A stretch of DNA of 64,000 bases from Alphaproteobacteria bacterium (GTDB lineage Bacteria; Pseudomonadota; Alphaproteobacteria; Micropepsales; Micropepsaceae): positions 1-64,000 of the forward strand of contig JAICHV010000015.1 of the NCBI GenBank assembly GCA_025924715.1, read 5' to 3'. Positions 693 to 25,023 of this stretch are shown piece after piece. The stretch's first letter is position 1. Every line of letters begins with the position of its first letter. A model generated the notes under the pieces. It saw only the letters and a program-made list of their open reading frames with translations. It was not told where the DNA came from and ran no database searches. The position numbers were made by a program, and so were the translations under genes.

Positions 693-857
693 CTAGGAAC
701 GGGAATTCTCGCCCTGTTTCCCACAAGCGACGAGTTTCGCTCGGACTCTTCGCCAACCGATCAATGTCCAGACTGTGGCGAGGAAAAGGCCCGACCCGGA
801 GATCAAATAGGCCGGCAGGATGTAACGGGCATAGGGAGACAAATCCAGCCAGGTCAT
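693..857 (-). CDS. ccmD: haem exporter subunit CcmD
   Basis: This 54-residue protein has one membrane helix (ILPAYLISGSGLFLATVWTLI) followed by a basic tail. That is the size and form of CcmD, the small inner-membrane partner that helps release holo-CcmE from the CcmABC transporter. The ATG overlaps the ccmC stop in an ATGA arrangement, so the two genes are translationally coupled. The reading frame can be extended upstream but the extension lies inside ccmC. The assignment rests on size, topology and position. Confidence 0.85.
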   Translation of the reverse strand: MTWLDLSPYARYILPAYLISGSGLFLATVWTLIGWRRVRAKLVACGKQGENSRS

Positions 858-1612
858 GCGATCCCCTGCATCAGGTTGCGGGCACGGCGGTTGACGATTT
901 CTGTTCGGGTCCGGATGATCCAAAGCACCGCGAAAAGCAGCGTATACCCTACCGCCATCGCAAGGAGCGGCCAAAGATAGACCGCGGCGATCTGGCCACT
1001 GAGGACGCTTTCGCCCTGATGCAGCGTGTTCCACCAGTTAACCGAGAACTTGATGATCGGCAGATTGACCGCACCCACAAGCGCCAATACTGCGGCCGCG
1101 CGCGCGGCATGGCTCTCGTCGTCGATCGCGTTCCACACAGCGCCATAGCCGAGATAAAGAAATAGCAGAAGCAGGAAACTGGTAAGCCGAGCGTCCCAGA
1201 CCCAAAACGTTCCCCACATCGGCCGGCCCCAGAGCGAACCGGTGACCAAACCCAGAGCGGTGAAGAGCGCACCCAAGGGGGCGGCGGCGCGCGCCGCGGT
1301 ATCCGCCAAAGGATGCCGCCAAACCAGCGATACCAGCGAGGCCATCACTATCGCGCCATAGGCCCCTTCCGCCACGATAGCGGCAGGCACATGGATGAAC
1401 ATTATGAGGACAGTTGACCCCTGCTGGTAATCAGGGGGGACATGGAATGCCAGGAACAAGCCCAGTGTCAGCGCCACGGCGCACCCCACGGAAAGCCAAG
1501 GCAGCAGCAGGCTGCTGAGGCGCATGAACTGCGCGGGATTGGCAAAACGCAAGATCGTTCTGTCACCGGCGGCTTTCGCCATGGCCATGGAGGCCGCGTC
1601 ACTGTTCATCAT
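854..1612 (-). CDS. ccmC: haem exporter / haem-handling protein CcmC
   Basis: CcmC is an inner-membrane protein that loads haem onto the chaperone CcmE. The 252-residue sequence shows six hydrophobic segments and the tryptophan-rich haem-handling region WGRPMWGTFWVWDARLTS, with histidines in adjacent loops (HVPAA; NTLHQG). Length and topology fit the family. The start at 1612 overlaps the ccmI stop as TGATG; a second ATG follows immediately at 1609. It sits between ccmI and ccmD in a tightly packed minus-strand operon. The ATPase genes ccmA and ccmB are not in this window. Confidence 0.95.
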   Translation of the reverse strand: MMNSDAASMAMAKAAGDRTILRFANPAQFMRLSSLLLPWLSVGCAVALTLGLFLAFHVPPDYQQGSTVLIMFIHVPAAIVAEGAYGAIVMASLVSLVWRHPLADTAARAAAPLGALFTALGLVTGSLWGRPMWGTFWVWDARLTSFLLLLFLYLGYGAVWNAIDDESHAARAAAVLALVGAVNLPIIKFSVNWWNTLHQGESVLSGQIAAVYLWPLLAMAVGYTLLFAVLWIIRTRTEIVNRRARNLMQGIA

Positions 1613-3033
1613 CAGGGTGCTGCCGTTTTTGGGGCCGACGTCCCGAGTTGGCCGTGAATTTGCTCGGCCAGCGGATCGTCGGGGGACAATTTGCCCAACG
1701 CCTGCTTCCACATGACACGGGCGCGATCGGCATGGCCGGCCCTTTTTTCCTCCACACCGACGGCGTAAAGCGCCGCGGCATTTGCCGGATCGATCTTGAG
1801 AACCTGACGCATGGTGGCGGCATAATCGGGAGGCGCCACATTTTCCGGTGCCGATGCCTTTTGCGTTTCTGCCAGGGTGAGAAGGATATCGGTATCGCGG
1901 GGATGCAGCCGTACCGCGCGGTCGATGGCGTCACGGGCCTTGTCCGTCTGACCCAACACATTATAGGCATGCGCCAATCGGCTCCAGCCGGCAGCATTGC
2001 CGGGATTTTTCTGCATCTCGGCGGCGAGCTTGTCGACCATGCCATGGATCATGGTTTCTTGCGCATCAGCCGACCCCGCCGGCGCAGAAGTTTGGGAACC
2101 GCTGTCCTTGGCCTGAAGAGCAGTCGCCATCGCGGACATGGCCGAATTCATCACTGCCGGGTCGGGCGGGCCGGCCCGCACCGAAGTCGGATCGAATCCG
2201 CCCTGCTTGGAAAATGCCGTTATATGTTCGCGCACCATGGGCAGCCAGGCCGCGCCCGGGTCGCTGCTTTGCTCCAAATCCTTCCAGATTCCCACTGCCC
2301 TCTTCAGGTTGCCGATCTGCGACTCCGCAAGCCCGATGTAAAAGCGAGAGCGCTCGCTCCGCGGATCGGCAGCCAGGGATTTCGCAAAAGCGGTCATGGC
2401 CTGTGGCACAACGGCGCCGCCATTGGCCATCACCAGGGCCTCGCCATATTCAGACCAGCTCGCCGCGTCATTGGCACCCAGTTCAATGACGTGCCGGTCG
2501 GCGTCGGCCGCTTGCGCATAATTGCGAGAGCCAAAATACATCTTCGCCAAGTTCTTGTAGCCCGAAATGCTGGGACTGGCCTGAACCTGCGCCTTCAACC
2601 GGTCGGCCTCGGAAGCGTACTGGAACTCGGAATCATGCTTTATCCTCCAACCATAGGGCTTGCCCGAAAGACCCGGCGACCCCAGCAGGGCATACATGGC
2701 CGATGATCCGGCCGTCACCAGCAACACAACGGCGATACCCGTGCCAATACGCCATGCCCGGTGGCTGCGTTCGCTCGGCCTGGAGCGGGCTGTCAGCTCG
2801 GCATCTTCGGCCGCCAGCATGCGGCGGTGAATCTCGAGCCGCGCCGAATCGCCTTGTGCCTTGGTCAAAACACCCCGCTCGATCTCCTGGTCGATCTCGG
2901 CCAATTGATCGCGATAGACCACCATATCGTAGTCGATCCGCGTGGCGCATTTTGCGTCCGGCCTGGCAAACAGCGGCACGACGAGGCCAATCAAAACCGC
3001 CAAAGCCAGAAGCGCCAACCCCATCCATACCAT
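1612..3033 (-). CDS. ccmI: c-type cytochrome biogenesis protein CcmI
   Basis: CcmI holds apocytochrome c for haem ligation by CcmF/CcmH. The 473-residue protein begins with a membrane helix (MGLALLALAVLIGLVVPL), a short arm with the conserved YRDQLAEID-type pattern, a second helix near residue 100 (VVLLVTAGSSAMYALLG) and then a long TPR-rich periplasmic domain. The start has a strong AGGAGG site a few bases upstream. It begins 3 bp after the end of ccmH and its stop overlaps ccmC. This order (ccmFG-ccmH-ccmI-ccmC-ccmD) differs from the common ccmABCDEFGH layout. Confidence 0.92.
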   Translation of the reverse strand: MVWMGLALLALAVLIGLVVPLFARPDAKCATRIDYDMVVYRDQLAEIDQEIERGVLTKAQGDSARLEIHRRMLAAEDAELTARSRPSERSHRAWRIGTGIAVVLLVTAGSSAMYALLGSPGLSGKPYGWRIKHDSEFQYASEADRLKAQVQASPSISGYKNLAKMYFGSRNYAQAADADRHVIELGANDAASWSEYGEALVMANGGAVVPQAMTAFAKSLAADPRSERSRFYIGLAESQIGNLKRAVGIWKDLEQSSDPGAAWLPMVREHITAFSKQGGFDPTSVRAGPPDPAVMNSAMSAMATALQAKDSGSQTSAPAGSADAQETMIHGMVDKLAAEMQKNPGNAAGWSRLAHAYNVLGQTDKARDAIDRAVRLHPRDTDILLTLAETQKASAPENVAPPDYAATMRQVLKIDPANAAALYAVGVEEKRAGHADRARVMWKQALGKLSPDDPLAEQIHGQLGTSAPKTAAP

Positions 3034-3036
3034 TGT

Positions 3037-3525
3037 TCAGCCTCCTGTTTGTGGCAACCGGTCGCTCATGAGCGCCGCCACGCGCCCCTCCTCCTCTGCC
3101 GAAAGCGAGGGCGTCCGGGCTGACGCAACGTAGCGGCGATAGAAAAGAACAGCCGTAGCCCCCGCAGCGGCGAGAAGCGCCAGCGGTCCGAGCCAGAGAA
3201 AAACGGTTTCAGAGTTGAACGGCGGCTTGAGCAAGACATAGGTGCCGTACCGGGCGACGAGATATTGCTTCACCTGATCGTCGCTGTCCCCGTCGAGCAG
3301 ACGCCGGCGCACCAGCATGCGAAGGTCGTGCGCCAGATCGGCGTCGGAATCGTCTATCGATTCATTCTGGCAGACAAGGCAGCGCAGCTCCCGGCCAATG
3401 GCGCGCGCGCGCCCTTCCAGCACGGGATTTGTCAATACTTCGTCGGGACGCAAAGCCAAAGCCGGCACGGACGGCAATCCCGTCGCCGTGAGCACAAGCG
3501 CGAACAGGATGTTGGATGCGCGCAT
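3037..3525 (-). CDS. ccmH: cytochrome c maturation thiol oxidoreductase CcmH
   Basis: CcmH keeps apocytochrome cysteines reduced before haem attachment. The 162-residue protein has a signal peptide (MRASNILFALVLTATG), the family motif LRCLVCQNESI, a three-helix periplasmic domain with VARYGTYVLLKPPF, and a C-terminal membrane helix (LWLGPLALLAAAGATAVLFY). The start overlaps the stop of the upstream ccmF-ccmG gene as TGATG; the longer reading to 3729 would lie inside that gene. All key residues (the two cysteines of C-x2-C) are present. Confidence 0.95.
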   Translation of the reverse strand: MRASNILFALVLTATGLPSVPALALRPDEVLTNPVLEGRARAIGRELRCLVCQNESIDDSDADLAHDLRMLVRRRLLDGDSDDQVKQYLVARYGTYVLLKPPFNSETVFLWLGPLALLAAAGATAVLFYRRYVASARTPSLSAEEEGRVAALMSDRLPQTGG

Positions 3526-6098
3526 CAGCGGGCCAACTTCGCCATCAGTGGAATGATGCGGTCGCGGATGATGTCCGGCGTCAGGGGGCCGGTCTGCTTG
3601 AAGCGGATGATCCCATTCTTGTCGATGAGATAGGTTTCGGGCACGCCATAGACGCCAAAATCGATTCCCGCACTTCCCGCCATGTCGCTCACCACATTGC
3701 CATACGGATTGCCAAGCTCCGTCAGCCATGCCTTTGCGTCATCCGGGCGGTCTTTGTAATTGACCCCGATCAAATTGGCCCCGCTACCGGCGATTTGTGA
3801 CAAATAGGCATGCTCCTCCCGGCAAGGAGCACACCAGGAGGCGAAGAAGTTCACCAGGGTCACCTTGCCCTTGAGGTCCGCCGTGGTGTAGCCGCGGTCC
3901 TTGGTGAGCAAGGGTGGCAGGGCGAATTGCGGCGCCGGCCGGTTGATCAGGACCGATGGGATAAGATTGGGCACGAAACCCTGATCGGCGAGATGAAGGC
4001 GGTAGACGAATGCGCCCGACAGGCCCAGAAAGATCAGCACCGGCGCTAGGCTGGCCCAGCCCCACCTCGGGGGTGCCATGGATGGCGGTTGCGGGGGCGC
4101 CGCCGCCTCCGGTTTCGGCATGCTGAACCGCCCCGCCAGGCTGCGCAACGGCGCGCCAATGCGGTGATGACGGTCGGTCAGGGAGACGACGCCGCCCAGC
4201 ACCAGGATGATGGCGCCCAGAAATAGCAGGGGCACCAGAGGATTGTGATAGATGTGAATGACGAAGCCGCCGCGATCAGCCGGATCGCCCAGCACCACAT
4301 ACAGGTCACTGACCAGATTGGTGTAGATCGCAACCGTAGACAGCGGTTGCGGCGGATTGGTGAATATACGTCGTTCGGGCTGCAGCTCGGTGATATAGTT
4401 GCCATCTCGCGTGACAATGAAGCGGGCGCGGGTGGAGGTATAATTCGGGCCCCGGAGATTGTCCTCGGTGCCGAGGAACTTCAATTGATAGCCCGACAGG
4501 GTCGCCACATCGCCCGGATGCATGACCTGCAGATACTCTTCCTGCCAGGCCTGGGAGCCGGTGACGCCCAGGATGACAACGGCCAGACCCAAATGGCTGA
4601 TCGTCATACCATAGGCGGCGCGGGGCAAATGCCTGGCGCGATGCAGAGCGTCGCGCCAGGAACGCTGAAACAGACCGATTCGTGACGTCCATTCGCGGAG
4701 GCTGCCGAAGAACAACCAGGCTGCGAGGCCGAGGCCCAGCGCGGCCAGCAGGCTGTGTTCTGAAAGCCCAGTCACCAGAAGGGTCAACCCCGCGACGGCC
4801 AATGCCGTCACTGCCACATATTTGAGCCGGCCAATTGCTTGGGAAAGGTTGCCCCTTTTCCACGACAGCAAGGGTCCTACGGCCATGACCGGCAGCAGCA
4901 GCAGCAGTAAGGGTCCGATCACCAGGTTGAAATAGGGCGGCCCGACCGAGACTTTTCCCCAACCCATCACATCGGCCAACAGCGGGTAAAGCGTGCCGAG
5001 AAGCACGCTCCCCGCCGCCGCGCTGAGAACAACATTGTTGAAAAGCAAGCCCGTTTCGCGCGACACGGCGGCGAATAGACCCTTGCTTTTGAGCACTGGG
5101 GCCCGCAGAGCATAGAGCAGAAGCGAACCGCCGGTCAGGCTGACCAGCAGACCGAGAATGAAAGCACCGCGGCGCGGATCGTTTGCGAAGCTATGCACGG
5201 ACGTCAGGATACCGGAGCGAACCAGGAACGTGCCTAGCAGCGACAGGGAAAATGTGATGATAGCCAGGAAGATGGTCCACGATTTCATGGTGTCGCGTTT
5301 TTCGGCGACAATGGCCGAATGCAGAAGCGCCGTGCCGGCCAGCCAGGGCATGAAGGAAGCGTTCTCGACCGGATCCCAAGCCCAATAGCCGCCCCAGCCC
5401 AGCGTGTAGTAGGACCACCAGCAACCCATGGCGATGCCCAGCGTGAGGGCGCACCAGGCCGCAAGCGTCCAAGGCCGCACCCAGCGTGCCCAAGCAGCGT
5501 CCACCCGCCCTTCGAGCAAGGCGGCGATGGCGAAGGAAAACGCCATCGAGAATCCGACGTAACCGAGATACAGGAATGGCGGATGGAAAGCGAGCCCAGG
5601 ATCTTGCAAGAGCGGGTTGAGACCCTCGCCATTGACCGGCGCCGGATCGACACGCAAGAATGGATTGGAGGTCAAGAGGATGAACAGCAGAAAGGCAAAA
5701 GCGATCATGGCCTGTACGGACAGGACTCGGGCCCGCAGGCCCAGCGGCAGATGGCGCCCGAACACGGTCACCGCCAACCCGTAAAAGGCGAGAATGAAGG
5801 TCCACAGCATCATGGAGCCTTCGTGATTTCCCCAGACGCCGGTGATCTTGTAGAGCATCGGCTTGTCGGTATGGCTGTTCTGGACCACGTTCAGGACGGA
5901 AAAATCGCTGGTGACGTGCAGCCAGGTCAGCGCCCCGAAGGCGCCGGCAACCAACAAGAACAGGAGGGCGGCAGCGAAGCGGTCTAACCGCATCAACACC
6001 GCATCGCCGCGCGCGGCCCCGATCAAGGGTACGGTCATTTGCACGGCGGCAACGAAAAGCGCCAGGATCAGCGCGAAATGGCCAAGCTCGGCAATCAT
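3525..6098 (-). CDS. ccmF-ccmG: fused cytochrome c haem lyase CcmF and thioredoxin CcmG/DsbE
   Basis: This one uninterrupted 857-residue frame covers two proteins normally encoded apart. Residues 1 to about 655 are CcmF: many membrane helices and the WWD haem-handling signature near residues 235-248 (GGYWAWDPVENASFMPW). After a proline-rich linker (about 656-680) a further membrane helix leads into a thioredoxin domain with active site CAPC at about 756-759 and the cis-proline context GVPETYLID. CcmF joins haem to apocytochrome; CcmG supplies reductant to the same step. Methionine 674 is where a separate CcmG would start, but it has no ribosome-binding site upstream. The gene heads the minus-strand operon ahead of ccmH. 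Confidence 0.93.
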   Translation of the reverse strand: MIAELGHFALILALFVAAVQMTVPLIGAARGDAVLMRLDRFAAALLFLLVAGAFGALTWLHVTSDFSVLNVVQNSHTDKPMLYKITGVWGNHEGSMMLWTFILAFYGLAVTVFGRHLPLGLRARVLSVQAMIAFAFLLFILLTSNPFLRVDPAPVNGEGLNPLLQDPGLAFHPPFLYLGYVGFSMAFSFAIAALLEGRVDAAWARWVRPWTLAAWCALTLGIAMGCWWSYYTLGWGGYWAWDPVENASFMPWLAGTALLHSAIVAEKRDTMKSWTIFLAIITFSLSLLGTFLVRSGILTSVHSFANDPRRGAFILGLLVSLTGGSLLLYALRAPVLKSKGLFAAVSRETGLLFNNVVLSAAAGSVLLGTLYPLLADVMGWGKVSVGPPYFNLVIGPLLLLLLPVMAVGPLLSWKRGNLSQAIGRLKYVAVTALAVAGLTLLVTGLSEHSLLAALGLGLAAWLFFGSLREWTSRIGLFQRSWRDALHRARHLPRAAYGMTISHLGLAVVILGVTGSQAWQEEYLQVMHPGDVATLSGYQLKFLGTEDNLRGPNYTSTRARFIVTRDGNYITELQPERRIFTNPPQPLSTVAIYTNLVSDLYVVLGDPADRGGFVIHIYHNPLVPLLFLGAIILVLGGVVSLTDRHHRIGAPLRSLAGRFSMPKPEAAAPPQPPSMAPPRWGWASLAPVLIFLGLSGAFVYRLHLADQGFVPNLIPSVLINRPAPQFALPPLLTKDRGYTTADLKGKVTLVNFFASWCAPCREEHAYLSQIAGSGANLIGVNYKDRPDDAKAWLTELGNPYGNVVSDMAGSAGIDFGVYGVPETYLIDKNGIIRFKQTGPLTPDIIRDRIIPLMAKLAR

Positions 6099-6286: not shown

Positions 6287-8656
6287 TCACAATGTGAGCG
6301 TCATGGCGGCTGTGAACTTGCTGACATTGTATTTTGGCGGCAGGTCACCGGTCAGCACGAAACCGGGCAACTTCCCCACAAGGGAAAAATTGCTGGTATC
6401 CACGCTGTCGAATTGGTAGCCGAGATAAAATGATGTGTGGACATCATAGTCGTAATCCGCATGAATTTTGATTTGATTGTCGACGGACTTTGTCGTCAAC
6501 AGGGGATCGCCCGCAAAGCCGAGATTCCAAGTACCGGATTGGGCAAATTCCTGCCCCGCATAGGACACGATGTAGTCGGCTACGACCTTTGTCTTGTCGC
6601 TGGCCTGCCACGTGCCGCCGATTCCTCCCATATGGACATCATAGGTGCTGCCCACTGCCCAGTAATTGCCGCCGGTGGGGTCGGACTGGTTGTTGAGTCC
6701 GCGAATGGCTCGGTAATTGCGAACGAACGTGTAATAGACGTGCACCTCTTCATTCTTATCGATCTGATAGTTCACGTCCGGACCACCTGATATGCTGTAG
6801 TCGCGGTGGACACCAACGCTCGGATTCGTGGTAATGGGCTTGGTGGCGGATGCCTGATAAACGGCGGGCGGATTGTGATATTCGTCGGTATTATACTTAC
6901 CCACGAAGCTGAACGACGTATTGTTGTCGATATTTCCCATCAGCCTGCCGGTGACGGTATCCTGGGTCCGCGCTGCCTGAAAGAAAGCAACCTGCTGACA
7001 TCCGAGAGTGAGTAGCGTGCTTCCGCAGTCGGATGGAATCTTGGCGAGCCAAAAGCTAAAGTCCGGCGCCGAAGTCGTGCGCGAGGCGTGGAGATAGCCT
7101 AGCGACCCTGTCAGGTTCGGCGCAAAGGTGGAGTAGATATTGACCGTTCCCTCGTTGTCACTCGAGTCATGAATGACCGCGTTTGTCCGATGGGCACGCC
7201 GGTAGGTATAGCCAGCGGTCATCCGTGTATCTTCCATGATGCGGTAGCCCGCGGTCAGGGCGAATTCCTGCTTGTTCCACGCCAACGGAGTCGCGTAGCG
7301 ATATTTGAGCGCGGTGGTATCGGTCGGGTCGCCGTAAATCCACTGGGAGCTGGTGTGCGGATCGCGCGTATCGATGGAATAGCTGGCCTTCAGATCGAGA
7401 TCCGCAATTGGCCGCGACGTGATCGTGGCATTACCGAAAAAGGTCTCAACCCATCCGTTCAGTGAAGTCGGATCGGTGGAAAGTTGGGCTGCCAGGGGGG
7501 CGGCAACCGGCAGGGAGAAATAGCCCATATTGGTTGCCGGCACGAAGGGCGCGTTCTGCAATTGTATGCCATAGACCGCGGTCGCATAAAGCCGGGTCGT
7601 CGCATCGTAGTTGTAGCCCAACTCGCCCGAGAAGGTGTGGGCCTGGGTGCTGGGCGGTAGGCTATAGTCGCCGGACTTGGGTAAGCTGGTATAGGTAATC
7701 GGCGCCGAGGTCTTATAGGCGGCGAAGTTCCAGCCCTGAAATGCATAACCGCCACCATTGTTGTCAGTGAAGCTCGAAAATCTATAGGAGATCTTGGCCT
7801 GCAGATCATCGGTATTGTAGGCGGCCGCGGCGGTATAAAGGTCGGTATCGTAATTGATCGGCATTGGAAAATCGACCATACCCGCGTTGTTGCCGCCGGT
7901 GGTCATTGTCTGTTCGAGCGTACCCTGCTTGTGCTCATGACTGACCCCGGTCGTCAGCGCCCAATGATCGATCTGATAGACGCCCTCGATCGTCCCCTTG
8001 TCACGGCGGGTGCCGACGTCAAGCACGATCTCATTGTTGGTCCCGAAAGTGGTGATGGGGTTGGCAGTGGCCAAACCCGTCGTGGCATTGAAGGCGCCGA
8101 ACAACGTGGCCGGAAGGGTCGGCACACTGGCGAAATACATGTTGGCGCCCTGCAGCGCTTTCTGATAGGCGGGCGACAAATTGCCATTCTGGTCGAGGAT
8201 TGTGGTGAAGCTGTCGCTGGCGACATACGTCATCGCATCATAAGAAGCGCTGATACTCCAAGTGCCCTGTTCGCCGACCTTGGCGCTGATATTGGCCTCT
8301 GGCGCGATCTTGCCCTGGCCGAAATTGACCCCGGTGCCGGTGAAATTGAAATACTTGGTGTTGCCGCTGTCCCAGGGATCGCGGTTTTGTAGATTCCAAC
8401 CGCTGATGACCCCCAGCCCGGCATTGGGCATGCCGTTATAGCGGCCATAAATTGCCGACGTGTTCGTGACGGCATCGAGGCCGAAGGTCACTTCGCCCAG
8501 GAAGGTTGGCACCGTGATGGCCGGCGCGTCCGCGGGCTTGGCGGATGCGTCGGAGATGGGGCGCCTGCCATCGTTCTGGGCTTGGGCGACAGCGGCCAAG
8601 GCGAACACACAGACGCCTGTGAGCGCGGCGATTTTCAGTTTCTGGACTTTGGACAT
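6287..8656 (-). CDS. outer-membrane beta-barrel porin of the MtrB/PioB family
   Basis: This 789-residue exported protein has a signal peptide ending AAVAQA and then a long run of alternating polar and aromatic segments ending in a C-terminal strand (AMTLTL), as in large outer-membrane barrels. MtrB/PioB proteins form the pore that sheathes a multihaem cytochrome so that electrons cross the outer membrane. The start at 8656 is chosen because the AAGGAG site lies 6 bases before it; an ATG at 8662 abuts that site. The N-terminal CxxC of Shewanella MtrB is not seen. It begins 10 bp after the multihaem cytochrome gene, so the two form one operon. Confidence 0.88.
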   Translation of the reverse strand: MSKVQKLKIAALTGVCVFALAAVAQAQNDGRRPISDASAKPADAPAITVPTFLGEVTFGLDAVTNTSAIYGRYNGMPNAGLGVISGWNLQNRDPWDSGNTKYFNFTGTGVNFGQGKIAPEANISAKVGEQGTWSISASYDAMTYVASDSFTTILDQNGNLSPAYQKALQGANMYFASVPTLPATLFGAFNATTGLATANPITTFGTNNEIVLDVGTRRDKGTIEGVYQIDHWALTTGVSHEHKQGTLEQTMTTGGNNAGMVDFPMPINYDTDLYTAAAAYNTDDLQAKISYRFSSFTDNNGGGYAFQGWNFAAYKTSAPITYTSLPKSGDYSLPPSTQAHTFSGELGYNYDATTRLYATAVYGIQLQNAPFVPATNMGYFSLPVAAPLAAQLSTDPTSLNGWVETFFGNATITSRPIADLDLKASYSIDTRDPHTSSQWIYGDPTDTTALKYRYATPLAWNKQEFALTAGYRIMEDTRMTAGYTYRRAHRTNAVIHDSSDNEGTVNIYSTFAPNLTGSLGYLHASRTTSAPDFSFWLAKIPSDCGSTLLTLGCQQVAFFQAARTQDTVTGRLMGNIDNNTSFSFVGKYNTDEYHNPPAVYQASATKPITTNPSVGVHRDYSISGGPDVNYQIDKNEEVHVYYTFVRNYRAIRGLNNQSDPTGGNYWAVGSTYDVHMGGIGGTWQASDKTKVVADYIVSYAGQEFAQSGTWNLGFAGDPLLTTKSVDNQIKIHADYDYDVHTSFYLGYQFDSVDTSNFSLVGKLPGFVLTGDLPPKYNVSKFTAAMTLTL

Positions 8657-8666
8657 AATCATCTCC

Positions 8667-9875
8667 TTAGCGGAAGAAGACCGAGCCGCTCGGGCTGTTC
8701 GAGCCGTGAATTTGCGAGTGGCAGTTCAAGCAGGCACGGTCGCCTTGGATGTAGAAGGATGTGCCACCGGCCAAGGCGGCATGGGAGACACCTTCGCCGC
8801 CCATGTCGTTGGTCGCCGCATGGCACCCAAGGCATAGGAATGGGGGCTTCTCTTTCAGCAGACGCTGATTGATTGAGCCATGCGGATTGTGGCAGTTGGT
8901 GCAGTCCTCGCGCACCGACTGATGTTCCCACAGGAACGGGCCGCGCTTGTCCGCATGGCAATTGTAACAGGTGTCGTTGACCCGAACCTCCTTGAGAAGC
9001 TTGGGACCAGGCGAGCCGTGCGGATTGTGGCAATCCGAGCAGACAACTTTGCCCTCGCGGATTGGATGATGCGAGAATTGCATCGACTGGGCGCGTTGCT
9101 CGGCGTGGCAGGTGAAGCAGACATTGGGCTGCGTCGCCTTGACCAGTATGGGATCCTTGGCAACGTGAATGGTGTGGCAACTGACGCAGGCAAGATTGCT
9201 GTTCTGGTGCTGGCTTCCGGCCCAGTCCATGCGCAGCCCGTTCTGGTGACAGCCGAGACAAGCCTGATTGCGCACCGCTACCGGCGAAGCATCCGGGCCA
9301 CGAAAAAGAACTGCAGGCAAAGCCGGTGAACCCTTCGCAAACCCCGCCGCGTGAGCATCACTGGGGCCATGGCAGGATTCACAACCCTGTTGCCCCATCG
9401 GCGAGTGCGCATCCCCTTTGGTTCCATGGGGCGTGCTGAAAATCTGGGTTACCGCCGCATCCTTGTGGCATGACAGGCAGGTGTTGGTGCCATTGACGCT
9501 GTAGAGCGTCGCACCGCCTTGTGTCGGCGGTGGTGCCGGCGCCGCAACGATTGTCGGCGCAGGTCCCTGTCCCGACGCAGCGGCAGCCACGATATATTCG
9601 ACCGCGGCCCTTATTTCGTCATCGGAAAGCGTGGAGCTTTTGCCCCCGCGCGCGGGCATGCCCCCTTTGCCATTGATCACGCTGGCGACAAGGACGCTTA
9701 TTCCTTGTTTGACCCGGGGCGCCCAAGCAGTGGTATCGCCAATCTTCGGCGAAATCCTGTCATGACACATCGCACAGCTTTTGCTGTAGATTGCGTGCCC
9801 GTCAGCAGCGGCCGCAGCATGGATTGCCAAGATCAGGAAGCTTGCAACAAAAACCACGAAAACTGAGGACTTCAT
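8667..9875 (-). CDS. 11-haem periplasmic cytochrome: monohaem domain fused to MtrA/DmsE-like decahaem domain
   Basis: This 402-residue protein has a signal peptide (to about residue 23) and eleven CxxCH motifs. The first (CAMCH) lies in a small class I cytochrome domain of about 85 residues with a likely methionine ligand in GGMPARGG. A proline/alanine linker follows, then ten motifs (CLSCH, CESCH, CLGCH, CVSCH, CFTCH, CSDCH, CYNCH, CTNCH, CLGCH, CLNCH) as in the MtrA/PioA/DmsE decahaem family. Such cytochromes sit inside an MtrB/PioB barrel and carry electrons across the outer membrane. The start has a GGGAGCG site. The direction of electron flow (metal reduction or oxidation) cannot be told. 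No extracellular MtrC/OmcA-type cytochrome or PioC is nearby. Confidence 0.92.
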   Translation of the reverse strand: MKSSVFVVFVASFLILAIHAAAAADGHAIYSKSCAMCHDRISPKIGDTTAWAPRVKQGISVLVASVINGKGGMPARGGKSSTLSDDEIRAAVEYIVAAAASGQGPAPTIVAAPAPPPTQGGATLYSVNGTNTCLSCHKDAAVTQIFSTPHGTKGDAHSPMGQQGCESCHGPSDAHAAGFAKGSPALPAVLFRGPDASPVAVRNQACLGCHQNGLRMDWAGSQHQNSNLACVSCHTIHVAKDPILVKATQPNVCFTCHAEQRAQSMQFSHHPIREGKVVCSDCHNPHGSPGPKLLKEVRVNDTCYNCHADKRGPFLWEHQSVREDCTNCHNPHGSINQRLLKEKPPFLCLGCHAATNDMGGEGVSHAALAGGTSFYIQGDRACLNCHSQIHGSNSPSGSVFFR

Positions 9876-10160: not shown

Positions 10161-10550
10161 TTATTTGATGCCCCGGAGGGTGGCATAAACGTCTGATGCG
10201 AATTTCTTGGCCATGGCCTCATCCTTCGCGCCGATGCCGGATTCTGCCGTCACCACAACAGATTCCAATTTGGCTTTGGTCGCCGCATTGGTGGTATCCG
10301 GAATTGCGCCATTGCCGTCACCCGTGCAGGGATTTTCATTGCTCTTGTCAAAGCCCTTACCGCGGGGCCCGACCAAGCAGTTGACGGCGTGGTGCAAATG
10401 CATCCGGACAGCATCCAAATTTGTACCAGCGACCGCATAACCGGCATGATCCGTCGCCGTGGCGATCTCGCTGGCCGCATCGGCGATTGCAGGCGCAGAC
10501 AGCATGCCAAACGCGCCAAGTGTGGCAGCGATTACAAGTCTCTTATGCAT
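10161..10550 (-). CDS. small exported protein of unknown function, histidine/cysteine-containing
   Basis: The 129-residue protein has a clear signal peptide (MHKRLVIAATLGAFGML to IADA) and so should be periplasmic. The mature part holds a conserved-looking block, VRMHLHHAVNCLVGP, and a second cysteine in NPCTGDG; the clustered histidines and paired cysteines could bind metal or haem, but no CxxCH motif is present. I do not recognise a named family. The ATG at 10550 has a GGGAG site; the longer reading to 10580 does not. It is preceded by a perfect FNR box (10647-10660) and lies upstream of the 11-haem cytochrome on the same strand, so a role in the same low-oxygen electron chain is a reasonable guess. 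Confidence 0.7.
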   Translation of the reverse strand: MHKRLVIAATLGAFGMLSAPAIADAASEIATATDHAGYAVAGTNLDAVRMHLHHAVNCLVGPRGKGFDKSNENPCTGDGNGAIPDTTNAATKAKLESVVVTAESGIGAKDEAMAKKFASDVYATLRGIK

Positions 10551-10572
10551 GACGATCTCCCTCAAAAAAGAA

Positions 10573-10624
10573 GAACGCAAGGCTGGGTGCGTTCACAATT
10601 AGACCATAGCTCCCTCGCATCCCA
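10573..10624 (-). promoter_or_regulatory. transcribed leader with terminator-like hairpin ahead of 10161-10550
   Basis: On the minus strand a perfect 7-bp inverted repeat (GAACGCA, 8-nt loop, TGCGTTC; 10573-10594) is followed by TTCTTTTTT and then the ribosome-binding site of the next gene. A stem followed by a run of T resembles an intrinsic terminator placed in a leader, so it could work as an attenuator. A -10-like TATATT lies at 10624-10629. Confidence 0.4.
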
Positions 10625-10829: not shown

Positions 10830-11450
10830 GTGGAAAATATGACATTGCCCGGTCGAGAAAGCCGACCGATTCCGAACTCTCTGAAGCAGGTTCGAGCGAT
10901 GATCAACGAATTTGGGGCTTGGGCGCCGCATCTGCCGATGAGTTGGCTTGTGGCCTTGGCGCACAGCCAATTGCATACATGGCTATACGGAATGAGGTTT
11001 TTGCACGGCGTTTTGCGCTTTGTTCACATCCTCAGCATGGGGGCCTTTTTTGGCGTTTTGGTCTTTGTGGAAGTGACACGGATTCAGCTTGTCCCCCGGG
11101 CCTCGATCCAACCCGTGCGGGGACCGTTATTCGCAGTGATGAACCGGGGGTTCGAGGTTGCCATTACTAGCGGCCTGCTGCTTTTTCTTTACGACCCGAT
11201 TGGCGTTGGTTCGCACGCGATGTTTCTTCCCAAGCTTATGCTCGTCGCGTTAGGCCTCATCCATGCGTTTTGGCTGCAGCGGCGCGCGATGTTTCGCAAA
11301 AGTGAACAGTGGCGCCGAATTGGCGCTGCGATAGCACTGGCGATCTGGATTCTGGTTCTTGGCTGCTCCACGTGGAACCACGAAGAGCTGATATTTAAGT
11401 TGGGCCAATACGGGAATCCGACAGAGCCGGTTAAGGGACCGATTCTTTAG
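10830..11450 (+). CDS. integral membrane protein, four helices, possibly DUF6644-like
   Basis: The 206-residue protein has four hydrophobic helices: VLRFVHILSMGAFFGVLVFV, FEVAITSGLLLFLYDP, FLPKLMLVALGLIHAFWL and IGAAIALAIWILVLGCSTW. Histidines occur in or beside helices (FVHILS, LIHAFW, WNHEE), as in small b-type cytochrome-like or DUF6644 membrane proteins; this resemblance is from memory of the pattern only. The frame opens with GTG at 10830; ATG codons at 10839 and further in are also possible, and none has a strong ribosome-binding site. It shares its upstream region and the FNR box with the divergent exported protein. Confidence 0.6.
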   Translation: MENMTLPGRESRPIPNSLKQVRAMINEFGAWAPHLPMSWLVALAHSQLHTWLYGMRFLHGVLRFVHILSMGAFFGVLVFVEVTRIQLVPRASIQPVRGPLFAVMNRGFEVAITSGLLLFLYDPIGVGSHAMFLPKLMLVALGLIHAFWLQRRAMFRKSEQWRRIGAAIALAIWILVLGCSTWNHEELIFKLGQYGNPTEPVKGPIL

Positions 11451-11588: not shown

Positions 11589-13040
11589 TTAGAGCCGCAC
11601 GGCCTCCGCCAACCGCGCGATTCCTTGTTGCAATTGGATGGGCGTGAGCGTGGCGTAGCTGAACACCAGGGCCCGGTCGTGGAAGGGCGACCGCCCGGTC
11701 ACGGAAGAGTCGTACGCCACGCTTTCGACATGGATCCCTTGCATGGCCGCCACCTCGCTGACCGATTCGGCGGAAGGCAAATATTCGGGGAGAAGCCAGG
11801 TCAACTGAGTGCCGCTTTCCGTGCCCATCAGCCGCACCTCGCCGAAAAACGTTTTCAGCGCCTCGATCAGCGCATCGCGCCGTGCCATGCAGGTCTTGCG
11901 CAGCCGCCGCAAATGCTTCTCATAGCTGCCGTCGGACAGTATCTCGGCCGCCGCCACCTGCTCCATGAACGAGCAGCCGGCATTGGAGGCCAGCTTCATC
12001 GCCTGCGTCGATTCGACAAATTCGGGCGGAACGACCAGATAGCCGATATTGACGCAGACACCGAAGACATGGGCCAGCGAGCCCGTATAAAAGGTCAGTC
12101 CATAGGGGTCGATCGCGGCGATGGGTAGCGGCAGAATGCCCTGGTAGTGCGGCTCTATCCCGTTGTCATCCTCCAGAATATAGGCGCCGGCTTGGCGGGC
12201 CCAGGCAATCAACGCGCTTCGCCGGGTCTTCGGCATGATCGCACCGAGGGGATTTTGCCGCGTCGGCGACACGCAGACCAGGCTAGCCGGACCCGACGGC
12301 AGGCAATCGATCATCAAGCCATCGTGATCCACAGGTACATGGACAAGATGTGCCTCCCGCGCCCGGAAGAATCGAACCGCATCCCGGGCACCTCCCGCCT
12401 CCAGCACCACGCGATCGCCCTTACGCTGAAACAGATGGGCGACCAGATTGCGCACTTCGCCGGAGCCGGAAACGATGATGATCTGATCAGGCGCGGCCTG
12501 GATGCCCCTCGTCAACGCCAGATAATCCGCCAGATCGCGGCGCAAGGCCGCAATGCCGATCGCCGCTTCCGTTTGGCCGACATTGTCCCGCCAGCGCGCC
12601 AGCGCCTTGCGAACTTCCGCAAATCCGTCCCTGCTTGAGGTGAAGAGGGCACCTTCGTCGGCGGCAGGGCGAAAATCTATGTCGCCGGGCTCCGCGAAAA
12701 GACGCCGGGCCAAGGCAAGACTGACATGCGCCGGTCGCAGACCTGCTTGGCGCACAATATCGGCTCCAGCATTGCGCGCCCGAATTCGCCTGGGGCCGTC
12801 GGGCGGACTGGGGCTTACGAAGGTGCCGACCGCGGGACGCGTTTCCAAATAGCCCTCTGCGATCAGGCGCTCATAGGCGAGAAGCACGGTCGTTCGCGAC
12901 ACACCTGCCCTCTGGGCCAGGAAGCGCGTAGCGACAACGCGGGAATGGGGGGCCAATCGCCCCGAGATGATCAATTGCCTAAGCTGATCGAAAAGCTGGT
13001 CTTGCAGGGGCGTGGGACCGTTGCGGTCCAGCTGCAGCAT
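11589..13040 (-). CDS. MocR/GabR-type regulator with altered PLP site
   Basis: This transcription factor has an N-terminal GntR winged helix (PLQDQLFDQLRQLI, then LAQRAGVSRTTVLLAYERL) joined to a fold-type I aminotransferase domain. In active members a lysine in a GTFSK-like motif forms the Schiff base with pyridoxal phosphate. Here the motif reads GSLAH with histidine at about residue 324, the arginine-containing RIGY reads NIGY, and EDDYD reads EDDNG. PLP binding is therefore probably lost or changed. The start at 13040 fits the family; the frame stays open to 13133, where the Shine-Dalgarno is badly placed. It is divergent from ccmE-hemA, suggesting local control of haem synthesis. Confidence 0.85.
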   Translation of the reverse strand: MLQLDRNGPTPLQDQLFDQLRQLIISGRLAPHSRVVATRFLAQRAGVSRTTVLLAYERLIAEGYLETRPAVGTFVSPSPPDGPRRIRARNAGADIVRQAGLRPAHVSLALARRLFAEPGDIDFRPAADEGALFTSSRDGFAEVRKALARWRDNVGQTEAAIGIAALRRDLADYLALTRGIQAAPDQIIIVSGSGEVRNLVAHLFQRKGDRVVLEAGGARDAVRFFRAREAHLVHVPVDHDGLMIDCLPSGPASLVCVSPTRQNPLGAIMPKTRRSALIAWARQAGAYILEDDNGIEPHYQGILPLPIAAIDPYGLTFYTGSLAHVFGVCVNIGYLVVPPEFVESTQAMKLASNAGCSFMEQVAAAEILSDGSYEKHLRRLRKTCMARRDALIEALKTFFGEVRLMGTESGTQLTWLLPEYLPSAESVSEVAAMQGIHVESVAYDSSVTGRSPFHDRALVFSYATLTPIQLQQGIARLAEAVRL

Positions 13041-13174
13041 CAAATTGGGAGAGCCTTTCGAACGCCAAGCCTGGTGGCCGGCATGTTCGATGCAAAGTAG
13101 GTCCCGACCATGATCGTCCACGCGCTTTCCCATCCCTTCATCGCAAGCTATGTCAGGAAGCCACGCCGGAGGCT

Positions 13175-19457: not shown

Positions 19458-19673
19458 CGCCGGGGTTCGATTCCCAAGTGGAGCGCCTCAATCCAAATAA
19501 ATCAAGGCGTTAGGGCGACGTGGGATAGTTTTCGGTCCCTATGTTGCCCAATGCATATTTCCGCGATTGTCCCCCCCACCGCGTGCAGGTCAGAGTGCGG
19601 CGAGGCTCCACTTGCAAGTCCAGATCGACAATGGCCTTGCAAGCGGGGGGCGGGTTTAGCGAGACAGGGGACA

Positions 19674-21071
19674 ATGCTTCGAGAGATTTCCAAGCCATTC
19701 AAGATCGCAGGACAATGGGCCGCCCCAGGGCTCGGCGACCGAGACGTCCCCGGCGAACTGTCCTACGCGCCAGAGCGTTGCGAACTTTCCTTGATGGGCT
19801 CTTTCCAGCAATTTCCGCAGTCGATTATCCAACCGTTCGCCCGGGCGCCAGTTATCCACGGGGTCTCAACGACCGGGGAACGTTTCTCACTGCTCAATCC
19901 AGTTCGGGGCCAGGTCAGCACAAGCTTTACGACTCACCATGCGGGGATTTCAGAGACTTGGGTTTGCCCCCTGGTACTGAGTGGCGTTCACGCAGGAGAA
20001 AACCCTGAACTTCCGATGTTGGAATTCAGGATACCCGGCCTCCAGTTCTGGCTGGGTCAGCAGGTGATAGTGAGCAGAGCAGATCAGCAAGACGAGGGGT
20101 TCAGTCGCACCTTTCGGGTCCGCAGCACTCCCCACGAGCTAACTTTCGTTCCGGTAATCGCGAGTGAGCTTAACTGGAGTACAAAGGTGGTAACATCCGG
20201 TGGCAGCTTCCATCTCACTGCTGAGTCGAGCGGTTGGTGCCAAGTTCGGCCTGCCGCGCCCCGGCCATTGCGTTGGTATTTCACCCAACTAGAGGCGATT
20301 ACTGCCCTGCTGACATTTACTGCGGGCACGTCAATGTCTGCGGACTGTATGTCCTTCCCCTCCGGAGAGCAGGGACAAAGTGGATCAGTTTTGGTGCCGC
20401 GCCGCGATGCCGCCTATTGCGGCTACCAGAAGCAGCACGAATTCTTCCTCACCCGCCCCGTCCTGAGCGAGCTATTCGGCGACATCGTGCGGAAGTGGTT
20501 TGAAGGTTTCCCGGCGTTATCCAGTACTATCCAACTCGCCGTGAGCATCGTGGCGTCCCCAAATCTGTGGCAGCACGTAGAATTTCTGTCATGGATGCAG
20601 GCTCTCGAAGGATTTCATCGAGGCACACTCCCGGGGCTTTATATGCCCTCCGATGAATACGAGAGCGTCAAGCAATCACTTGGTACTGCCATCCCATCCT
20701 CTCTTACCAAGGCTCACCGAGACTCCCTGCGCTCGCGAATCCGTTATGGAAACGAGCTCTCACTCGCCAGACGGTTAAATGAGCTAGCTGACCAGCTGGG
20801 GCAGGAACTTCGCGTTCGGCTTTTTGGATCGTCCGGAAATGTGCCCCGCGCATGGATTGACACCCGTAACTATTACACACATTGGGATGAGCAATCCCGT
20901 TCCGGCCTGATGAACACCCAGCAACTGCTGCACGCCAATCTTCGCTTGAGACTGTTCGTGCAGTCGCTATACCTGAATTTCGCAGGCGTCGATCAGCGCG
21001 CCATCCTTACCGCGTTGGGAGGATCAAACGAAAAATCCCAATGGCTGTTGCAGATTAACGGTGGCGGATAG
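19674..21071 (+). CDS. ApeA-like HEPN anti-phage protein
   Basis: The 465-residue protein has an N-terminal beta-rich region beginning with IAGQWAAPG and a C-terminal HEPN-type helical domain with the ribonuclease-like motif RNYYTH (R-x4-H) at about residues 398-403, in the context AWIDTRNYYTHWDE. This two-part layout matches what I know of ApeA, a single-gene abortive anti-phage system acting as a HEPN nuclease. The start at 19674 has an AGGGG site 5 bases upstream; the frame extends to 19551 without one. Base composition and setting suggest it came with the island. Confidence 0.75.
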   Translation: MLREISKPFKIAGQWAAPGLGDRDVPGELSYAPERCELSLMGSFQQFPQSIIQPFARAPVIHGVSTTGERFSLLNPVRGQVSTSFTTHHAGISETWVCPLVLSGVHAGENPELPMLEFRIPGLQFWLGQQVIVSRADQQDEGFSRTFRVRSTPHELTFVPVIASELNWSTKVVTSGGSFHLTAESSGWCQVRPAAPRPLRWYFTQLEAITALLTFTAGTSMSADCMSFPSGEQGQSGSVLVPRRDAAYCGYQKQHEFFLTRPVLSELFGDIVRKWFEGFPALSSTIQLAVSIVASPNLWQHVEFLSWMQALEGFHRGTLPGLYMPSDEYESVKQSLGTAIPSSLTKAHRDSLRSRIRYGNELSLARRLNELADQLGQELRVRLFGSSGNVPRAWIDTRNYYTHWDEQSRSGLMNTQQLLHANLRLRLFVQSLYLNFAGVDQRAILTALGGSNEKSQWLLQINGGG

Positions 21072-22741: not shown

Positions 22742-22920
22742 GGTCTGTCCTTCGAAATGCCCACGGGTCGGGGGCGCCCGCGAGGGGAAGATACAGCCAA
22801 ACTTGCCACTAGGTCTAGTATGAAAGCCCCACCATAGCGGCCCTATGAGGGGGTTCTCGCTTAGAGGTCCCTACATACGGCAGGAAAATGACGGCCACAT
22901 GAAGCCCAAAAGTGACACGC

Positions 22921-22949
22921 TTGTGTTACACAAATGGGGCGCGTATAGT
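22921..22949 (+). promoter_or_regulatory. promoter with operator-like palindrome for the methyltransferase gene
   Basis: A perfect palindrome TTGTGT-T-ACACAA (22921-22933) contains a -35-like TTGTGT; after a 17-bp spacer comes TATAGT (22944-22949). A repressor bound to the palindrome would block the -35. The downstream gene has its own helix-turn-helix, so autoregulation is a reasonable guess. Confidence 0.5.
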
Positions 22950-22974
22950 CCCTCCGCCATCATATGAGTCGCCA

Positions 22975-25023
22975 ATGACCATCGCTGCCCAGCTTAAATC
23001 AGCCCTCAAACTCTCTCCGCACCAACGGGAGAAACTCGCGGCGACGCTGTCCGTATCTACTTCCACCGTTGATCGGTGGGCAAACGGGTCGGCCCAGCCG
23101 TCGTCTCGGCACCTCAAAGCACTCGAACCGCTGCTTTCCGAATTCTCAGACGCATTGCTGATGGATCGGCTGTTACAGGCATTTTCCACGTCATTGGGTT
23201 CCGCAAGAGAGGCCATGCACCGTCATGGCGCAGCGTCCTCAAGGAATGACGCTCTGGATCAGATCAGCTTGATATTGATCTCGCAGCTCAGAGCGCTCCG
23301 GTCAGGTAAGGCCGGGATTCAATCGCTCTCCCAAGAGCAAGCGGTGGCCGCAATGAATGAGAGCATCGCGACGTTGGACGTTGCCGCTGCCCCCAGCATC
23401 AAAGTGGCATTCGAGCGAACGTCTGCGATGCTAGTGAGCAAACCTCTTTTCCTCGCGGACCTGCTCAACGCCATGGCTCCGGCACTGAGTGAGATCGAAA
23501 AGTCGCAGATGGGGCATAGCGGGAACTTCCACGAGTTGTTTGTGAGCTTCCTCACGTCTTCGTTCCACGAGGAGAAGGAGTTCGCTCAATACATGACACC
23601 GCGGGAAGTCACGGACTTCATGACCCGCGCTGGCCTGTCGCTAGTTACGACACCAGAGGGCAAACATCCGATCGTTCTTGATCCTTCCTGTGGAACGGCT
23701 TCATTTCTGACAGATTTTGCCGACCTGTATGCGGCCCATCTTGATCAGGATAGCAAGCCCGGTACTGGACGCAGATGGCTTGACCGCGCCGCTGGTGACT
23801 GCCTCATAGGAATTGACACGAGCGAGCGGATGATACGGCTTGCTTCTGCTTCATACATCGCAGCCGGAATTACACCGAAACGGCTCCTTCTCGATAATGC
23901 CCTTCATCCCTCCACCGAGGAGGTGGGGATGATACTGAAGAAGGACTTCGCCGACCTGATCCTCACCAATCCGCCTTTTGGAGCCGAGCACAGCAAGGGT
24001 GCTCATGGCGGACGGGTGCCATCTGAAGTGATTTTCTTGTCTCGTTATGCCCAATGGCTCAAGCCTGGCGGCGTGGCGCTGACGATAGTTCCGGACAGCA
24101 TCTTAACGAACAAAGGGTTATTCGAACGCGCACGACGCGACCTGTTATCCACCCTCCACATTGAAGCGGTGATTTCTCTGCCCCCAGTCACGTTTGCTGC
24201 ATCCGGAACCACAACCAAGACCTCAGTCCTCATTGTCCGCAAGAAAGGGGTAGGAGGTGCTCAGCGGCAGACCTTTTTCGCCGTGGCGGAAGATGTTGGC
24301 TTTCAAGTTTCGGCTCGGGGATCAATCCGCAAGAGGGTTCGCCAAGGCAAGAACCAGCTCCCAGAAATTGCCGATGCGTTGTTGTTCGGCCCCGCGGAAA
24401 GCCATTTGGGCGTGTGGAGGCCGCTGACGGCCCAATGCACACGATGGGATGCTCACTATTGGAACGCACCTGTGGTGGCTCCCTCTGCTTCTATCAAGGA
24501 GCTTGGTAAGCGAGTGATCCTGGGCGATGTTGCGGACCTTGTCGATGATCGCGCCGATCCGAGGAAGCTCAAGGCAACCACATTCCAATATATCGAGATT
24601 TCCGGAGTTGACGGTGAAATTCTACGAGTCGCGGCAAATGAGACTTTGGTGGCCGATGCGCCTTCACGGGCACGCAGGCGTGTTCGGACAGGCGATGTAT
24701 TAATTTCAACTGTTCGTCCTGAAAGGCGGACGGTGGGTGTCGTACCTCCCGCCTTGGACGGGGCGATATGCAGTACTGGGTTCGCGGTATTGAGATCAAA
24801 GTCTCTGTCACCATACGCTTTAGCCGCTGCTTTAAGATCGAGGTTGGTGACGGAACAACTTGTTCGAGTTTCTTCGGGGGTCGCCTATCCAGCTTTTGAG
24901 CCGGAAGTGCTGCCGCGCGTGCAGTTGGAATTGCTTGACGATCAGTGGCTTCAGGATTGTGCACGCTACGGTGAAACGCTCCTCAACTTGGAAGCGATGC
25001 GCGAAAATGTCCTTGCGGCCTAG
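22975..25023 (+). CDS. N6-adenine DNA methyltransferase fused to a helix-turn-helix and a type I specificity-like domain
   Basis: The 682-residue protein has three parts. Residues about 1-60 form a helix-turn-helix (LAATLSVSTSTVDRWANGSA). Residues about 180-470 are an HsdM-like methyltransferase with the SAM motif LDPSCGTASFL (about 236) and catalytic NPPF (about 332-335). Residues about 490-680 resemble a half type I specificity subunit (VILGDVADL, GDVLISTVRPE, SSGVAYPAFEPEVL). It would methylate adenine to protect DNA. Its end overlaps by 4 bp the convergent nuclease gene. The start at MTIAAQL has a weak ribosome-binding site. Confidence 0.85.
   Translation: MTIAAQLKSALKLSPHQREKLAATLSVSTSTVDRWANGSAQPSSRHLKALEPLLSEFSDALLMDRLLQAFSTSLGSAREAMHRHGAASSRNDALDQISLILISQLRALRSGKAGIQSLSQEQAVAAMNESIATLDVAAAPSIKVAFERTSAMLVSKPLFLADLLNAMAPALSEIEKSQMGHSGNFHELFVSFLTSSFHEEKEFAQYMTPREVTDFMTRAGLSLVTTPEGKHPIVLDPSCGTASFLTDFADLYAAHLDQDSKPGTGRRWLDRAAGDCLIGIDTSERMIRLASASYIAAGITPKRLLLDNALHPSTEEVGMILKKDFADLILTNPPFGAEHSKGAHGGRVPSEVIFLSRYAQWLKPGGVALTIVPDSILTNKGLFERARRDLLSTLHIEAVISLPPVTFAASGTTTKTSVLIVRKKGVGGAQRQTFFAVAEDVGFQVSARGSIRKRVRQGKNQLPEIADALLFGPAESHLGVWRPLTAQCTRWDAHYWNAPVVAPSASIKELGKRVILGDVADLVDDRADPRKLKATTFQYIEISGVDGEILRVAANETLVADAPSRARRRVRTGDVLISTVRPERRTVGVVPPALDGAICSTGFAVLRSKSLSPYALAAALRSRLVTEQLVRVSSGVAYPAFEPEVLPRVQLELLDDQWLQDCARYGETLLNLEAMRENVLAA

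Follow-up and report, generated by a model that had tools for sequence, protein, structure and literature searches.

A conduit-type decahaem cytochrome carrying a fused c5-like monohaem domain in a Micropepsales genome

The window analyzed here is a 64,000-nucleotide stretch of DNA (positions 1 to 64,000 of contig JAICHV010000015.1, assembly GCA_025924715.1) from an alphaproteobacterium of the order Micropepsales, and it encodes a predicted porin-cytochrome conduit made of a decahaem cytochrome and an MtrB/PioB-family barrel. The decahaem cytochrome carries a class I monohaem domain at its N-terminus, a rare domain fusion that the sequence supports well and that a single assembly shows, in a conduit of an already known kind. 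The source is a metagenome-assembled genome (MAG), 3.7 Mb in size, whose completeness is 92.9% and whose contamination is 5.79%. It probably belongs to the genus Rhizomicrobium, and no SSU rRNA was found in it. On balance, we favor a DmsE/PioA-type conduit whose decahaem carries a covalently tethered c5 domain as its periplasmic partner, with electrons probably flowing inward.

Architecture of the fused cytochrome and its barrel

The two genes and the segments of the fused cytochrome map as follows.
8667..9875 (-): whole open reading frame (ORF), 402 aa, with monohaem and decahaem domains
9576..9875 (-): res. 1–100, signal peptide as far as ~24, then the monohaem domain of cytochrome c5/c551 type, from PF13442, PDB relatives, and AlphaFold
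9483..9575 (-): res. 101–131, Ala/Pro/Gly-rich linker, from hydropathy; lines up with the tails that precede the first haem in unfused decahaems
8667..9482 (-): res. 132–402 and stop, DmsE/MtrA/PioA-type decahaem domain, from TIGR03508 and 6r2q_A
9324..9359 (-): res. 173–184, signature segment common to decahaems with an operon class I cytochrome
6287..8662 (-): MtrB/PioB-family outer-membrane barrel, 791 aa, from PF11854

The 402-residue cytochrome contains 11 CxxCH motifs (at residues 34, 133, 165, 206, 230, 253, 279, 303, 325, 348, and 382); its length, motif count, and gene coordinates agree exactly with an earlier note on this DNA that had described the conduit. Residues 1 to ~24 look like a Sec signal peptide by hydropathy. 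The class I domain extends over residues ~24–99, with its haem motif CAMCH at 34–38, and Pfam Cytochrome_CBB3 (PF13442) matches residues 21–95 with 52.5 bits (cut-off 27). Met73, within GGMPARGG, is invariant across seven rows, comprising the window domain and six homologous small cytochromes, and is proposed as the axial haem ligand; the N-terminal class I domain with a likely Met ligand, as first noted, thus holds. For this N-terminal region, a sequence search against solved structures returned cytochromes of the types c551, c-555, c-556, cA, ScyA, c5, and c6. The AlphaFold model of residues 1–100 has block predicted local distance difference test (pLDDT) values of 75–93 over residues 21–100, and its best Foldseek match (TMt 0.86, root-mean-square deviation 1.3 Å) is 2zon_G, a c551 solved together with nitrite reductase. 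With a CxxCH motif, a Met loop, and a c5-like predicted fold, the domain belongs by sequence and predicted structure (res. 24–99) with the class I cytochromes c5/c551/c-555/ScyA, although the nearest relatives of solved structure each consist of one domain and are not joined to any conduit.

The linker leads directly into the decahaem. A 15-residue hydropathy scan of residues 80–130 found no strongly hydrophobic segment, with a best value of 1.18 versus 2.92 in the signal peptide. TIGR03508 (DmsE-family decahaem) matches residues 129–395 with 310.9 bits against a curated cut-off of 192.2, and the ten haem motifs of this domain span residues 133 to 386, bearing out the ten MtrA/PioA/DmsE-like haems of the earlier note. 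Over residues 124–400 the domain matches 6r2q_A (E 1.8e-76), an entry that carries the odd molecule name 'Cystathionine beta-synthase' and is used as the MtrA structure in PMC12203936. All ten decahaem CxxCH motifs are invariant in a 17-row alignment, as are ten non-motif histidines (H150, 175, 223, 237, 269, 270, 286, 318, 332, and 390), which are, as expected, candidate distal ligands fitting ten bis-His haems. The GC content at third codon positions (GC3) is alike in both halves of the gene, 0.645 in the monohaem and 0.712 in the decahaem part, and the ORF has a purine-rich, ribosome-site-like stretch.

The barrel matches PF11854 (MtrB_PioB) with 224.7 bits, against a gathering score of 23, but reaches 188 bits with TIGR03509, below the curated cut-off of 240.05. 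It is, by its Pfam match, a distant MtrB/PioB member that falls under NCBI's line, and the family named in the earlier note is retained at that level. Its first ATG (8662) lies 4 bp and its second ATG (8656) 10 bp from the decahaem stop; the 10-bp spacing reported before is that of the second ATG. The OmcA/MtrC family (TIGR03507) has no match anywhere in the genome, extending the earlier remark that no outer-face cytochrome is nearby; the high-potential iron-sulfur protein (HiPIP) PioC was not searched for.

Distribution of the fusion and comparison with known conduits

The fusion surveys all sampled genomes. Among 96 genomes searched in the order, 15 gave a match at E 1e-15, and 17 decahaem genes besides that of the window were examined (loci L059-L071, 13 in number, plus one gene in G063, two in G062, and a further one in the genome of the window), none of them fused. 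A class sample of 385 genomes yielded five with a match, including the window's own, in which alone the fusion occurs. The phylum sample comprised 398 genomes, and 27 of them, counting the window's own, gave matches; 29 of the 34 matches outside it were inspected, and 0/29 loci has an N-terminal haem domain, one of them (L135) being incomplete with eight motifs, while the remaining five have open frames of 311–329 aa. Finally, scanning the contigs of GTDB species turned up 53 loci, 17 of which (L005-L021) hold a close decahaem, and 0/17 is fused; five of these 17 come from the same genomes as G070, G060, G063, G062, and G064. No earlier description of such a fusion was found in open-licence PubMed Central full text.

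Two kinds of candidate for a second fusion were rejected. At L011, a tblastn match begins at residue 19, yet the ORF has 318 aa and ten haems. The Chloroflexi loci L038 and L039, matching residues 21-137 and 17-100, encode tandem class I repeats and no decahaem; these proteins (L039 6927-9593 and L038 4505-5992) carry several class I cytochrome domains in a row. Of the 11 motifs in a decahaem homologue of G062 (L087 9872-10879(+), contig C48), none belongs to an N-terminal domain, and the 19 kb examined at this locus gave no barrel match. The window's genome also holds a second conduit (L079 5286-9049, contig C6), in which a 424-aa decahaem with a long haem-free N-terminus accompanies an MtrB/PioB barrel, adjoining an SLBB/Poly_export gene and a weak Wzz match.

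In Shewanella, CymA is the donor to MtrABC. The window's decahaem aligns with the MtrA of that system (PDB 6r2q) over residues 124-400, and the haem-1 end of MtrA is periplasmic; MtrA differs in having no fused monohaem, and an outer MtrC is present. As in PioABC of Rhodopseudomonas palustris TIE-1, a decahaem-barrel pair without an apparent outer-surface cytochrome includes an N-terminally extended cytochrome. The PioA extension is described in PMC6831781 as ~200 aa without a clear domain, followed by a hydrophobic region and clipped off, and the PioABC operon carries a HiPIP. Here, instead of a domainless extension and a hydrophobic region before haem 1, the N-terminal part is a haem domain. 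A standard PioA form, against which the earlier note had set the fusion, is therefore rejected, both by the lack of a clear domain in PioA and by the unfused decahaems of the phylum sample.

MtoABD-CymA/ImoA of Sideroxydans lithotrophicus ES-1 likewise joins a decahaem and a barrel with a monohaem class I cytochrome of the cluster. However, MtoD is separate, bis-His, and c552-like, with a potential of +155 mV (PMC4412085), whereas the window's domain is c5-like, predicted His/Met, and fused, in a genome with no NapC/NirT match. With Met73 invariant, its best PDB matches are c-555, c5, cA, and c551, and no chain among 60 of the 64 PDB matches is named MtoD. Other ways to tie cytochromes to an outer-membrane conduit, both unlike that of the window, are Cyc2, a fused monohaem cytochrome-porin, and PCC3, with a 21–27-haem periplasmic cytochrome (PMC10734462). 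In the relevant passages of three comparative papers (PMC10654088, PMC8805035, PMC10734462), separate genes encode the accessory cytochromes that go with decahaem conduits, and those cytochrome-porin fusions that are mentioned belong to the Cyc2 type.

Separate counterparts, partner classes, and the decahaem signature

Comparison with relatives supports a correspondence between the fused domain and a stand-alone gene of their conduit operons. Six genomes of the order have a free cytochrome of 98–111 aa, 48–57% identical to the fused domain. It stands between the barrel and ccmF in G017, G026, G064, and G062, while in G040, where the contig begins within the barrel gene, its neighbors are the barrel and ccmI; the tandem locus of G063 has it after the barrel of the first operon (barrel B), upstream of the second operon. 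The fused domain retains 34 of the 45 positions invariant among the six free copies, its best match to a separate copy is 63% over 71 residues, and a tree places it with all six in one group of 28 rows (support 100/100). The decahaem's own signal peptide is replaced in the fusion, and no separate copy of the domain was found in the window's genome (92.9% complete). A simple deletion between the last gene of operon B and the first gene of operon A, an idea prompted by the tandem arrangement in G063, is kept only as a possible origin, because ~2 kb with NapC and EB_dh intervenes there and the monohaem tree does not place the fused domain firmly. The operon's nearest relative, in G070, offers a parallel without fusion, with a separate class I cytochrome gene (L092 13059-13505(-)) immediately upstream of that for the decahaem.

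Other conduits have different neighbors. At ten loci, genes for a NapC/NirT tetrahaem and an EB_dh-domain protein lie directly upstream of the decahaem in the same direction (BLAST with the L082 pair), both within the genus (L082, L086, L089, L090, L091) and outside it (L006, L009, L012, L015, L016). Both genes are present in the opposite direction at L013, and EB_dh occurs alongside other redox genes at L011 and L018. We searched for the pair genome-wide in 11 genomes with a close decahaem or a free cytochrome, a set that omits four more distant ones of the 15 matching order genomes (G003, G007, G027, G042). NapC/NirT and EB_dh were both found in the same five (G063, G060, G058, G062, G041) and neither in the other six, the window's included; with completeness as low as 67% (G058), 79% (G040), and 82% (G064) in the compared genomes, such absences are soft. 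The six genomes without a match to the pair all have an operon class I cytochrome, which is fused in the window, of another subfamily in G070, and free and c5-like in four, while G063 and G062 hold both operon kinds. Divergent 680-700-aa genes with nine haem motifs adjoin operon B at L082 (16592-18691(+)) and L085 (12138-14177(+)), and the L082 protein resembles a b561-type domain with a score under the cut-off. The NapC-EB_dh-decahaem-barrel cassette at L016, from a Nevskia sp. MAG, hints at transfer between classes.

The decahaems themselves differ between the two groups. The signature segment is two residues shorter than in NapC-class decahaems, and haem motifs 2 and 3 lie 41 residues apart in 7/7 decahaems with an operon class I cytochrome and in 0/21 others (10 with NapC and EB_dh; 11 with other or unassigned neighbors). 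Sixteen alignment columns fully separate the seven class I rows from the ten NapC/EB_dh rows; 11 fall in residues 135-184, at the haem 1–3 end, five in 361-377, near haems 9–10, and none between. As a share of variable columns, this amounts to 11/68 at the N-terminal end, 0/100 in the middle, and 5/29 at the C-terminal end. Fisher tests of the N-terminal end against the middle (p 2.8e-5) and against all the rest (5/129, p 0.005) are descriptive only, as they ignore kinship and the regions were picked after the haem 2–3 gap was seen.

In the decahaem tree, the window, G070, and five rows from operons with a free c5-like cytochrome (type B) form one clade (99/99); an approximately unbiased (AU) test does not reject a placement of the window decahaem among the genus rows from NapC/EB_dh operons (type A; p 0.156). 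The window barrel groups with the G070 barrel (100/100), and its placement with type-B barrels is rejected (AU, p 0.0005). Taken together, decahaem and barrel do not fit a single simple history.

The conduit is flanked by the following genes.
3525..6098 (-): CcmF fused to CcmG/DsbE, 857 aa, opening the ccm operon behind the conduit (PF16327, PF01578, TIGR00385)
3037..3729 (-): CcmH (PF03918)
1612..3033 (-): CcmI (TIGR03142)
854..1711 (-): CcmC (TIGR01191)
10161-10580 (-): 139-aa protein with a signal-like N-terminus, upstream of the fused gene
10830-11450 (opposite strand): ORF with no Pfam match, upstream of the fused gene
11589..13133 (-): GntR/MocR-type regulator (PF00155+PF00392)

The MocR regulator is 41-54% identical to homologues at 12 loci, and in 8/12 the homologue adjoins NapC; the window keeps this upstream gene, but NapC and EB_dh are not at that place. 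The 139-aa protein has no Pfam or NCBIfam match and no homologue in the loci compared. A cytochrome c' gene stands after CcmC on the same strand, and further upstream of the conduit are a CcmE gene and a pyridoxal phosphate enzyme (Pfam Aminotran_1_2), which we take to be aminolevulinate synthase. Nine loci in relatives show the same CcmF-CcmG/DsbE fusion, and at L015 it is split. Elsewhere in the window, an ApeA-type HEPN protein (19551-21071(+)) and an N6 DNA methylase-like protein (22912-25023(+)) may form an anti-phage island.

Proposed periplasmic partner and probable direction of electron flow

In MtrCAB, haem 1 lies towards the periplasm and haem 10 towards the surface (PMC12203936). 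Because haem 1 of MtrA faces the periplasm, an N-terminal fusion would put the c5 domain at the inner mouth of the conduit. By analogy with MtrA, the decahaem would form a complex with the barrel and sit inside it, haem 1 towards the periplasm, with the uncleaved c5 domain swinging at that end on the ~32-residue Ala/Pro linker. It would pass electrons one at a time between haem 1 and another partner in the periplasm or inner membrane, a role that may be filled in relatives by the separate small class I cytochrome or by the NapC/NirT tetrahaem and the EB_dh-domain protein. The linker reaches at most ~109 Å when fully stretched, and the periplasm is wider than linker plus c5 domain; another partner would therefore be needed. 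The earlier suggestion that the fused domain could dock periplasmic donors and replace a separate shuttle is partly supported. It agrees with the operonic gene of relatives, the haem-1 position, and the failure to find a separate copy, NapC, or EB_dh in the genome, but a full replacement of the shuttle is not supported, as linker and domain together fall short of the periplasm's width.

His/Met c5-type carriers are expected to be high-potential, which favors inward flow. Electrons would then pass from extracellular donors such as Fe(II) or reduced humics through the conduit to the c5 domain and on to a high-potential respiratory chain. COX1 has four near-full-length matches in the window's genome (haem-copper oxidases). 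PDB entry 8smr contains cytochrome c5 with cbb3 oxidase; a coupling of the fused c5 to cbb3 is not supported here, since a search of the genome for FixO gave no match. More tentatively, and at somewhat less than even chances, the two groups of conduits may reflect a partner switch in which a low-potential quinol module (NapC/NirT and EB_dh) gave way to a high-potential soluble cytochrome, the window's conduit having become fused to its own partner, with a matching signature at the periplasmic end of the decahaem.

Several observations weigh against the favored reading of a tethered partner and inward flow. The fusion is seen in a single genome, the MAG described above with its 5.79% contamination, and the AlphaFold model of the whole 402-aa protein (pLDDT 42.5) was discarded. 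An unconstrained tree puts the fused domain outside the six separate copies (91/74), with an AU p of 0.5 for one clade, and the G070 class I cytochrome belongs to a different subfamily. The split among the 11 genomes, a chosen and partly incomplete set, partly follows shared ancestry and was defined after the gene order was seen, and the five class-specific columns at the surface end are unexplained by a periplasmic partner. Neither the cbb3 subunit FixO nor RuBisCO was found in the window's genome, the latter leaving autotrophy without support. Moreover, in Sideroxydans MtoA interacts with PmcA but, in vitro, not with the operonic MtoD (PMC13390432), so operon neighborhood alone is no proof of docking.

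Flow in the opposite direction, in which a bc1-reduced fused c5 would feed the conduit to Fe(III) chelates, Mn(IV), or an anode, appears unlikely but deserves weight. The haem-copper oxidases together with the failure to find RuBisCO suggest a heterotroph, and Rhizomicrobium electricum was reportedly obtained from a fuel cell; in Shewanella, moreover, MtoD and PmcA can accept electrons from CymA and hand them to MtrA (PMC13390432). Yet NapC/NirT, the usual low-potential quinol donor, was not found in the genome, and, with most decahaem potentials being low (ranges in PMC12203936), a high-potential c5 would donate to them poorly.

bc1 polyproteins set a precedent for cleaved cytochrome precursors. 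Cutting of the linker after export, so that c5 is set free as a shuttle and an ordinary decahaem is left in constant proportion to it, would suit the Ala/Pro-rich composition of the linker and recall the N-terminal region of PioA, lost after secretion (PMC6831781). We nonetheless consider it improbable, given the replaced signal peptide of the decahaem and the lack of a strongly hydrophobic stretch or second signal peptide before it, unlike the hydrophobic region of PioA. An N-terminal domain without redox role, aiding only export or haem loading as proposed for the PioA extension, would fit the ccm genes directly following the conduit and the lower holo-PioA level upon deletion of the PioA 200-aa region (PMC6831781); the domain, though, keeps its CxxCH, Met73, and the 34/45 residues invariant in separate copies, and we regard this as very unlikely. 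Hardly credible, finally, is an assembly chimera in which two genes, whether from the same organism or from different ones, were joined. While the fusion sits on one contig of one MAG, with no other fused sequence among those examined, the ORF is in frame with a ribosome-site-like stretch and a signal peptide, GC3 is similar across it, and even the best separate copy matches at only 63% over 71 residues.

The periplasmic docking partner of MtrA/MtoA-type conduits is currently under revision (PMC13390432), and a covalent fusion points straight to one class of candidate partner. As a single protein, it lets electron transfer between conduit and partner be measured. The partner-class split and the haem 2–3 signature together offer a testable rule for the partner, and perhaps the direction, of conduits from uncultured organisms. 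If the proposed partner switch is true, the partner class, and perhaps the direction of flow, could be readable from the decahaem sequence alone, a 'Rosetta stone' of extracellular electron transfer.

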